Source: Nitrospirae bacterium CG2_30_53_67 (lineage in GTDB: Bacteria; CG2-30-53-67). Taken from it: DNA of 22,373 nucleotides. Below, piece by piece: positions 1 through 14,667 of the stretch; position 1 is the first letter of the stretch, and each line of letters begins with the position of its first letter. The notes below the pieces were generated by a model, which worked only from the letters and a program-made list of their open reading frames with translations, had not been told where the DNA came from and did not search any database. Location of the stretch: NCBI GenBank assembly GCA_001873285.1, contig MNYV01000072.1, forward strand, positions 1 through 22,373. Reading direction: 5' to 3'. The position numbers were made by a program, and so were the translations under genes.

Positions 1-64
1 GCTCGCCTTGATGAGACTGCCCTACGACCCTCTCGGTACGTTACCATATTTACGAACAGGACCA
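1..64. mobile_element. Right end of a MITE-like inverted-repeat element (second copy, cut by window edge)
   Basis: Bases 1-64 match bases 2097-2160, the right arm of the complete element at 2000-2161, at about 60 of 64 positions. The terminal sequence TACGAACAGGACCAC is identical in both. The base after the terminal C is followed by TGA and then G, so this copy sits in a CTGAG context while the complete copy sits in CTTAG. That fits insertion at a CTNAG site with a 3-bp TNA target duplication. The left half lies outside the window, so the duplication cannot be verified here. No coding capacity is visible. Confidence 0.75.
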
Positions 65-127
65 CTGAGAAGATCGATCGTGGGGAAAATAAGGAAAAAT
101 TAAAAGAACCGCTGGAAGGGGAATGGG

Positions 128-1986: not shown

Positions 1987-1999
1987 AGAGGGCTCCTTA

Positions 2000-2161
2000 G
2001 TGGTCCTATTCGTAAATACGGTGGCATTCGAGTGCCGTAGGGCGATCTCCTCGGCGTTCCGCTCCTTGCGGTGTACCAGAGGGGTACGCCTCAGTCGCGC
2101 GCCTTGATGAGATCGCCCTACGACCCTCTCGGTACGTCACCATATTTACGAACAGGACCAC
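2000..2161. mobile_element. Complete MITE-like inverted-repeat element inserted at the pyrD stop codon
   Basis: The two ends are inverted repeats of about 24 bp with two mismatches; each outer end reads GTGGTCCT going inwards, followed by TTCGTAAATA. An inner block (CGTAGGGCGATCTC) also repeats in inverse orientation, and the centre holds a GTACC/GGTAC mini-hairpin, so the whole 162 bp can fold into one long hairpin. TTA at 1997-1999 and 2162-2164 flanks it, within a CTTAG context on each side. This looks like a 3-bp target duplication. There is no transposase or convincing ORF, so it would be non-autonomous. A second copy ends at base 64. Confidence 0.8.
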
Positions 2162-3091
2162 TTAGAGAACGCCGGTCAGGTCCCGCATGGAGGCCATGCC
2201 GTATTGAATCATATAGTCACGGATCCCCTGAATGACCTTGAGAGGGGTCATGGGATCCACGAAATTTGCGGTACCGACGGCCACGGCAGTGGCGCCGGCC
2301 AGGAGGAAAGAGACCGCATCCTCGGCATTCATGATCCCCCCCATCCCGATCAACGGGATCTTGACCGCCCGCGCAACCTGATAAACCATACGGAGCGCCA
2401 CCGGACGGATGGCCGGCCCGGAAAGCCCCCCCATGATGTTGGCCAGTTTGGGTTTTCTGCTGTGGATGTCAATGGCCATGCCGAGCAGGGTGTTGATCAG
2501 GGAGACGGCATCGGCCCCTTCCCCCTCGGCCGCACGGGCGAACTCGCTAATATCGGTGACATTGGGCGAGAGCTTGACGATCAGCGGAAGCCTGCACGCC
2601 TTGCGGACCGTTTTCACGACGTTTCGTGTCTCGACCGGGTCGGTACCGAAGGCCATCCCCCCCTTCTTGACATTGGGGCAGGAGATGTTGAGCTCGATGC
2701 CGTCCACACCCTCCGCGTCATTGAGACAGCGGGCGACCTCGGCATACTCCTCGCAGTCCTGTCCATAGATATTGGCGATGATGCGCGTCTCCCGCCGCCT
2801 GAGCAGCGGGAGTTTATCTTCTATAAATGCCCTGACACCGATATTCTGAAGCCCGATGGCGTTGAGCATACCTGCGGGGGTCTCGCAGATCCTGGGGGGA
2901 GGGTTCCCGGGCTGAGGATTCAGCGAAAGCCCTTTGACCATGACCCCGCCTAAAGAGGAAAGGTCATAGAATTCGGACATCTCTTCACCGTATCCGAACG
3001 TTCCGGACGCCGTGATCACCGGATTCTTCATCCGGATGCCTCCGATGTTGACGGTAAGGTCCGGAGCTGAGGAGGATCTTCTCTTGTTCAT
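2162..3091 (-). CDS. pyrD: Dihydroorotate dehydrogenase, class 1B catalytic subunit
   Basis: This oxidises dihydroorotate to orotate, the fourth step of UMP synthesis, with FMN in an (alpha/beta)8 barrel. In class 1B enzymes the electrons pass to NAD through the PyrK subunit, and pyrK lies immediately upstream. The protein shows the N-terminal NPVITASGTFGYG segment, the active-site loop NISCPNV with catalytic C138, KLSPN, and the phosphate-binding GMGGI and GTANF segments near the C-terminus. I use the ATG at 3091 (309 residues), about 10 bases after AAGGA; the frame is open to a TTG at 3109, which would leave no ribosome site. A 46-nt gap with a small hairpin separates it from pyrK. The TAA stop lies on the target-site duplication of the element at 2000-2161. 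Confidence 0.96.
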   Translation of the reverse strand: MNKRRSSSAPDLTVNIGGIRMKNPVITASGTFGYGEEMSEFYDLSSLGGVMVKGLSLNPQPGNPPPRICETPAGMLNAIGLQNIGVRAFIEDKLPLLRRRETRIIANIYGQDCEEYAEVARCLNDAEGVDGIELNISCPNVKKGGMAFGTDPVETRNVVKTVRKACRLPLIVKLSPNVTDISEFARAAEGEGADAVSLINTLLGMAIDIHSRKPKLANIMGGLSGPAIRPVALRMVYQVARAVKIPLIGMGGIMNAEDAVSFLLAGATAVAVGTANFVDPMTPLKVIQGIRDYMIQYGMASMRDLTGVL

Positions 3092-3110
3092 CTCATAAAT
3101 TTCCTTCAAG

Positions 3111-7623: not shown

Positions 7624-7640
7624 ATAATGAATAGTTCAAA

Positions 7641-7712
7641 GGGTTCAAGGGTTCAAGGGTTCAAGGGTTCAAGGGTTCAAGGGTTCAAGGGTTCAAGGGT
7701 TCAAGGGTTCAA
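7641..7712. repeat. Nine perfect tandem copies of an 8-mer (GGGTTCAA)
   Basis: The 72 bases are nine head-to-tail copies of GGGTTCAA (TTGAACCC on the coding strand). They are followed by a degenerate stretch to about 7735 that repeats CTTGAACGG twice and makes short inverted repeats with the array. It fills most of the gap between the radical SAM gene and carB, ending 17 bases before the carB ATG. Related 8-mers occur at 8705-8716, 14445-14460 and 14578-14588, so this is a dispersed family in this genome. A perfect array of this length is prone to slippage and should vary in copy number. Confidence 0.95.
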
Positions 7713-8680: not shown

Positions 8681-8720
8681 TTTGCCGCCGGATCTTACGT
8701 GGTTTCAAGGGTTCAAATGG

Positions 8721-8768
8721 TTTAATTCAGCGAGAATTCCCCAGTCGGGGAATTCTCGCTGAATTAAA
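8721..8768. repeat. Perfect 22-bp palindrome overlapping the carA 3' end
   Basis: Bases 8721-8742 and 8747-8768 are exact reverse complements with a 4-nt loop (AGTC). On the minus strand the hairpin encodes the last 13 codons and stop of carA. It is followed by CCATTTGAACCC and not by a U run, so it is not a standard intrinsic terminator in the operon direction. A degenerate GGGTTCAA unit abuts it at 8705-8716. It may be a mobile palindromic unit, or a transcript-stability hairpin between carA and the next gene. Confidence 0.85.
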
Positions 8769-9884
8769 CTTTTCCATCATCACGAGAAACCTCTCGAACA
8801 GATATCTCGAGTCGTGAGGACCGGGTGATGACTCCGGATGGTACTGAACCGAAAAGATCGGGAGCCGTTTGTGCCTGAGGCCTTCCACGGTCCGGTCATT
8901 CAAATTGATATGAGTCAATTCCACATCCTGATCCGCCCTCTTTAAAAAATCAATATCCACGGCGAATCCGTGGTTCTGTGCCGTGATCTCAACCTTTTCG
9001 GTCGAGAGATCCATGACCGGCTGGTTCCCTCCGTGATGGCCGAACTTGAGTTTATAGGTCCTGCCGCCCAAGGCAAGGCCTAAGAGCTGGTGCCCCAGAC
9101 AGATGCCGAAGATCGGTTTCTGACCGATCAGTCCCCGGATCGTTTCCACGGCATAGGTGACTGCCTCCGGGTCACCGGGACCGTTGGAGAGAAAAATTCC
9201 GTCCGGATTCATATTGAGAATCTCCCGGGCCGTACACCCTGCAGGGACCACCGTGATCCTGCAGCCGAAGCCCGCAAGGATCCGCAGGATGTTCCTCTTG
9301 ATCCCATAATCAATAGCGACCACCCGGAACCTCTCCGCAGGCGCCTTGGCATACCCTTTGCCCAAAACCCATTCAGCATCATCCCAGGCGTAGGGCGTTT
9401 GGCAGGTGACTTTCCGCACCAGATCCTGCCCGGCCATGGAGGGCCTCGCCGCAGCCCGGCGGACCAGCGAGACCGGATCGAAATCCGTGGTGGAGATGAT
9501 CCCCTGCTGAGCGCCCCGGTCCCGGATATGCCTGGTCAGGGCGCGTGTATCGATCCCGCATATCCCGACGATCCCTTGTTTCTGGAGATATTCGTTCAGC
9601 GAGCAATCGGATCTCCAGTTGCTGGTGATTCCGCTCACCTCCTTGGCCACGAACCCCGAAACATAAGGCCTGCCGGATTCCACGTCTTCGGCATTGATGC
9701 CGTAGTTCCCGATCAAGGGATAGGTCATGGTCACGATCTGACCTTGATAGGAGGGATCGGTAAGGATCTCCTGATACCCCATCATGGAGGTATTAAACAC
9801 AACTTCGCCGCCGTTTTCACCGGCGGCGCCGAATGATTTTCCTTCAAAGACCCGGCCGTCGGCCAAGGCCAAGATTGCTTTCAT
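8727..9884 (-). CDS. carA: Carbamoyl-phosphate synthase small (glutaminase) subunit
   Basis: CarA hydrolyses glutamine and channels ammonia to CarB. The N-terminal half is the CarA-specific domain ([18 protein letters not shown]). The C-terminal half is a class I glutamine amidotransferase with nucleophile C262 in GICLGHQ and the H349/E351 pair in QYHPE. I use the ATG at 9884 (385 residues), with GAGGAG just upstream; the frame runs open to a GTG at 9947, but those 21 residues do not resemble CarA. The normal C-terminus is about FLVMMEK. The last 13 residues ([13 protein letters not shown]) are encoded entirely by the perfect palindrome at 8721-8768, which looks like an addition. It follows pyrC with an 85-nt gap. 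Confidence 0.97.
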
Positions 9885-14358: not shown

Positions 14359-14436
14359 AAGATTCCCTCTCTTGCTTTATTCTCGGTTCTTATCCTCTAC
14401 GAGCCATCGGCCATATAGTGGGTAAGAAGGGTCCGA

Positions 14437-14667
14437 GGATTCCAGGGTTCAAGGGTTCAAGTGAAATACTTAAACACAAACAAAATCTCCAGAGAAAAAC
14501 ACTGGATCCCTTGACCCCTGATGTTTTTAGCACTTCACCCCGTTAGAGGACAACCTCTAACGGGGTTCACTCGACCCCTTGAACCCTGGGACCCTCAAAC
14601 CCTTAAGTCTTTGAAAAGCACTTCACTTGACCCCTGGAATCCTTGACCCCTTGACCCCTGATGTTTT
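14437..14667. repeat. Degenerate repeat-filled spacer between kinase and regulator genes
   Basis: The 347-nt gap 14359-14705 has no gene but holds much repeat sequence. AGGGTTCAAGGGTTCAAG (14444-14461) belongs to the carB-upstream 8-mer family. CCCTTGACCCCTGATGTTTT occurs twice (14508-14527 and 14648-14667), and AGCACTTCAC occurs twice (14529-14538 and 14618-14627). The left flank GATTCCAGGGTTCAAG reappears inverted near 14623-14643, with a gap. In the middle lies a perfect 13-bp hairpin (14537-14549/14554-14566, loop ACAA) with no U run on either side. I find no promoter I would defend in this gap. Confidence 0.8.

Follow-up and report, generated by a model that had tools for sequence, protein, structure and literature searches.

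A MITE-like element between pyrD and a cytochrome gene in a CG2-30-53-67 bacterium: a CTWAG target that preserves stop codons

Introduction

How can a mobile element of 162 bp enter the short interval between two co-directional genes and leave intact both the stop codon of the first gene and the ribosome-binding site of the second? This question is raised by the junction of pyrD and a multihaem cytochrome gene in contig MNYV01000072.1 of Nitrospirae bacterium CG2_30_53_67, the analysed stretch of which (22,373 nucleotides) is referred to here as the window. The genome that holds the window (G000) comprises 2.36 Mb and is a draft of 183 contigs. An earlier note on this DNA, made from the sequence of the window, interpreted the junction as a MITE insertion in which the duplicated target rebuilt both signals. 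The results presented below make it highly probable that an element of this kind hit a CTTAG pentamer at the pyrD-cytochrome junction with both signals rebuilt, that its copies persist where they are harmless, and that its hairpin is likely to break the coupling of the two genes.

Results

The element is an imperfect palindrome located at positions 2000-2161 (forward strand), as indicated by the sequence, the alignment of its family, and the predicted fold, and no gene was found within its 162 bp. Its ends read GTGGTCCT...AGGACCAC, and the left and right terminal inverted repeat arms, which form the outer helix, lie at 2000-2025 and 2137-2161 (both forward strand). It is flanked by two genes of the reverse strand, namely, pyrD (2162-3109), encoding dihydroorotate dehydrogenase (Pfam DHO_dh), and the multihaem cytochrome gene (625-1986), the product of which contains a Cytochrome_C554 domain and four CxxCH motifs. 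The coordinates of the element and of the TTA triplets at 1997-1999 and 2162-2164, given in the earlier note, are correct, and the sequence agrees with the roles assigned there to both triplets. On the coding strand, the triplet at 2162-2164 is the pyrD stop codon TAA, while the triplet at 1997-1999 opens the TAAGGAG ribosome-binding site of the cytochrome gene (1993-1999, reverse strand), in which GGAG is separated by six bases from the ATG. Both junctions read CTTAG: the fifth base of the left pentamer (1996-2000) is the first base of the element, and the first base of the right pentamer (2161-2165) is its last base. The deletion in silico of the element and one TTA leads to CTCTAAGGAGCCCTCTATG, where the pyrD stop codon overlaps the ribosome-binding site; such an overlap of a stop codon with the Shine-Dalgarno sequence of the next gene is a known arrangement at tight junctions (PMC2784483).

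The comparison with relatives provided an empty site. The genus is represented in this comparison by one further genome, G001, the PyrD protein of which is 89% identical. In G001, the cytochrome gene directly follows pyrD with no element between them, and the joined flanks of the window can be aligned with this locus over 240 bases without gaps. The TAA is shared, and 10 bases separate the stop codon from the ATG in both genomes. This element-free junction supports the proposed 3-bp target duplication upon insertion as well as the proposed entry into a tight co-directional junction. The correspondence is incomplete, as the seven bases that follow the TAA at this locus (L052) are GTGGTTA in G001 and GGAGCCC in G000 (five of seven differ). 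With TAAGTGG in G001, the TAAGGAG Shine-Dalgarno sequence is not a signal conserved in the genus. In all five relatives, the pyrD-cytochrome junction is tight or overlapping (ATGA and TGAATG in other genera); the insertion therefore split a tight pair. Two other insertions, namely, L004, where 10 bases separate the neighbouring genes, and L028, likewise correspond to empty sites in G001 that align without gaps. The L027 insertion is common to G000 and G001, and thus some of the insertions are older.

The GTGGT that follows the pyrD stop codon in G001 matches the five bases with which the element begins in this orientation, and may be the scar of a deletion. If the element was already inserted here in the common ancestor of the genus, its imprecise removal from G001 could have left this GTGGT. 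The divergence of the seven-base block, far exceeding that of the remainder of the 240-base alignment, and the presence of the L027 insertion in both genomes are consistent with such a loss. On the other hand, a random deletion would restore only by luck the distance from TAA to ATG, which is exactly 10 bases in both genomes, and GTGG is absent from two other sites that are empty in G001. We therefore consider the loss from G001 unlikely and favour the insertion of the element into the junction.

The element belongs to a repeat family. At least 40 scored full matches were found in G000, and a search with the 18-base end (up to three mismatches) gave 170 matches there vs. 0 for the reversed control; the 100 end matches listed group into 86 sites, and the family occupies about 85 sites in G000. 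Searched with an HMM of the element, the stretches of G000 around copies yielded 83 hits. The element is not a chance sequence. It is present in many copies in all five other genomes of the bacterial family examined, while one weak partial match was found among 35 genomes from outside this family. A scan of public genomes with the end motif recovered the same group, labelled Nitrospirae CG2-30-53-67-like, and bins from Hainich groundwater, as well as isolated hits scattered over other genomes, a number of which would be expected from chance alone. The mean identity of full-length copies is 89% (range 79-99%). In sister genera, the element commonly occurs in a longer form, in which about 100 additional bases separate positions 59 and 60 (e.g., G002:C174:6521-6784 and G005:C169:8027-8289). 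No Rfam family was matched in the window.

Other repeats are also present in the window. About nine tandem copies of the octamer AAGGGTTC lie beside carB (7639-7712), and diverged units of this octamer occur in both orientations near 14.4-14.7 kb (14427-14660); runs resembling the octamer adjoin the element copy in L023. A perfect 23-bp inverted repeat with a 4-base loop (8720-8769) is located between the end of carA and a radical SAM gene.

The target of the element was deduced from 47 distinct copies with matching flanking triplets (clean copies), and the flank statistics rest on about 237 kb around copies. The duplicated triplet is TTA in 31 and TAA in 16 of these copies, and no other triplet occurs. 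Among relatives, the matched duplications are TTA or TAA in 20 of 21 cases, 17 of which lie within CTWAG. The earlier note had conceded that its reading would fail if TTA flanked every copy as a part of the element itself. Since TAA takes the place of TTA in 16 of the 47 clean copies, and the duplications in relatives are likewise of both types, the flanking TTA is the target and not the element. Moreover, two other empty sites of G001 have TCA and CTC in the place of TTA. Before the insertion, the site read CTWAG in 40 of the 47 clean copies, and no base preference beyond the pentamer was found. No clean copy uses CTGAG or CTCAG, pentamers that are each more frequent by a factor of four to five in this DNA. 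All 47 aligned copies begin with G and end with C, and these two terminal bases complete the pentamer, so that CTWAG is read again at both junctions after the insertion.

Approximately one third of full-length copies are not flanked by matching triplets, which we take as decay. At the start of the contig, the right part of a second copy (1-65, forward strand), truncated by the contig boundary, is followed by TGAG instead of TTAG, and hence this copy either departs from the target rule or has mutated. In four loci (L019, L088, L097, and L122), a further element start directly follows the right triplet in a head-to-tail arrangement, with a single TWA shared, which fits the re-use of the rebuilt target.

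The two strands of the CTWAG pentamer contain different stop codons, one TAA and the other TAG. Because the pentamer carries these codons and is rebuilt at both junctions, a gene that ends at CTWAG keeps its stop codon from either side. A TAA stop codon is the duplicated triplet itself, while a TAG stop codon consists of the last two bases of the triplet and the first G of the element; where TAAG is followed by GAG, the ribosome-binding site is kept as well. The idea that the duplication kept both signals holds in that both are intact, but the preservation of the stop codon is not a coincidence, being built in by the CTWAG target and the invariant terminal G and C.

According to gene calls made by a simple codon-usage script, which are approximate, 9 of the 47 clean copies are located exactly on the stop codons of called genes, and the next gene is co-directional in eight of these nine; the raw count of open reading frames of at least 60 aa that end at a junction (22 of 67) is an upper bound. 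Such a location might indicate that the element is aimed at stop codons or operon junctions per se, beyond its preference for CTWAG. An enrichment at stop codons beyond the pentamer was tested against control CTWAG sites from the same DNA and was not found: stop codons hold 9 of 46 non-interior insertions vs. 3 of 25 non-interior control sites (p = 0.52), and with laxer gene-calling thresholds 4 of 22 or 4 of 23 controls lie on stop codons (p 0.5-1.0 overall). Together with the lack of base preference outside the pentamer, this makes aiming at gene ends highly improbable. A strong depletion concerns gene interiors, which contain 1 of 47 insertions vs. 15 of 40 control CTWAG sites (p = 3e-5; p from 1e-5 to 8e-7 with other gene-calling thresholds). 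The observed depletion would most simply result from selection removing insertions from genes. The target rule combined with the removal of harmful insertions explains the finding, and extra targeting is unneeded. The landing on a stop codon is thus a neat but predictable outcome of the target preference of the element, by which it is mostly explained.

The predicted fold of the junction RNA has an energy of -114.6 kcal/mol vs. -64.6 ± 4.6 kcal/mol for shuffled sequences. The outer helix comprises 24 pairs, and 93% of its cells are paired across the 47 copies; over the arms, pairing is kept in 91.8% of cells, and 13 pairs are changed on both sides, vs. 6.0 ± 1.2 in shuffles. The consensus calculated by RNAalifold itself shows less pairing and little covariation. 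Because a single copy supplied the structure and the copies share ancestry, the pairing of arms across copies is moderate evidence. The earlier suggestion that the hairpin could end co-transcription gained no support, as a search of the region 1800-2400 for terminator-like sites with a T-run was negative; the element is not an intrinsic terminator because its hairpin lacks a U-tract.

The inverted repeat might instead be maintained as a regulatory RNA hairpin selected at gene ends, e.g., as an RNase III site or a 3' stabiliser. The very stable fold and the compensatory changes are in line with this, and the hairpins of ERIC and NEMIS have been reported to alter the stability or processing of neighbouring mRNAs (PMC2229807). 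The pairing of arms is, however, also expected from the needs of transposition or from arm-to-arm conversion, and the majority of copies lie off stop codons. Moreover, in a longer fold of the junction, GGAG is predicted to pair with CUCC inside the cytochrome gene nearly in the same way with and without the element. Selection for a regulatory role at gene ends is therefore doubtful. The hairpin of this mobile element may still act as a processing or stability element rather than as a terminator. A sequestration of the ribosome-binding site by the end of pyrD, which appeared in a short fold, vanished once the cytochrome coding region was included. The likelier cost of the insertion would be lost translational coupling, with a ribosome finishing pyrD no longer beside the cytochrome start.

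Discussion

Results of our analysis are consistent with the following course of events. A non-autonomous cut-and-paste element (MITE) would have entered CTTAG, which reads CTAAG on the coding strand, with duplication of its central TTA. Both junctions would then read CTTAG again, as they do now, leaving intact the pyrD stop codon TAA and the TAAGGAG in front of the next gene. Copies would survive where they are harmless, i.e., between genes or on stop codons, while selection would remove those that enter genes. In the mRNA, the long hairpin of 162 nt between the stop codon and the start codon would most likely break direct stop-to-start coupling. A bolder view of the element is that of a self-regenerating inserter specific to gene ends, for which the rebuilt pentamer with its stop codons on two strands would make gene ends reusable safe harbours, and the hairpin of which would bring the stop codon and the ribosome-binding site together again, so that coupling would survive the insertion of 165 bases; we regard this view as rather improbable.

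The pyrD-cytochrome junction shows, at the level of single bases, how a mobile element that follows the CTWAG rule can spread through a gene-dense genome and leave genes unbroken, even inside operons; L004, L008, L027, and L028 are examples of insertions at other gene junctions. The insertions also provide natural pairs of before and after states, in which the effect of a large hairpin between a stop codon and the next ribosome-binding site can be gauged.

A transposase partner would be expected to share the ends of the element family, GTGGYCCTATTCGTAAAT. Among end pairs separated by 400-3500 bp with an open reading frame between them in the loci of relatives, no autonomous partner with two convincing ends and matching flanks was found. 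The transposase search, which covered the families PF01609, PF13359, PF13586, and PF07592 in the draft genome of 183 contigs and was not exhaustive, revealed PF01609 loci with ends that differ from those of the element; PF13359 and PF13586 are absent from the six genomes of the bacterial family, and PF07592 gave no match in this family but none in control genomes either, which makes this last search uninformative. The IS1031 group is characterized by a TNA duplication. The PIF/Harbinger superfamily duplicates TWA, the same trinucleotide as the element described here, and IS5 elements, which are related to this superfamily, duplicate ANT in bacteria (PMC4482050). Membership in the PIF/Harbinger-IS5 assemblage is a lead provided by the TWA duplication alone, as the above searches found no IS5-type transposase with these ends.

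The element has the defining features of bacterial MITEs and represents a new family of a known kind: it is short, multicopy, and non-coding, has terminal inverted repeats, duplicates its target, and has gap-free empty sites at three loci of G001. A literature search, which covered few subscription journals, found neither this element nor the stop-codon rule described. Like RUP, NEMIS/Correia, ERIC, and CIR, it is shorter than 200 bp, geneless, bounded by terminal inverted repeats, and associated with a target duplication, and it shares with them the high copy number, the long RNA hairpin, and the mostly intergenic location (PMC2229807). While most known bacterial MITEs have TA ends and are A+T-rich (PMC2229807), the element described here duplicates TWA within CTWAG and has a G+C-rich centre. 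It resembles YPAL/RU-2 of Yersinia, which is also palindromic, not A+T-rich, and without the terminal TA motif, YPAL being 168 bp long (PMC2229807). However, the duplications associated with YPAL vary from 3 to 26 bp (PMC2229807), whereas those of the element of the pyrD-cytochrome junction are always of 3 bp and concern one target.
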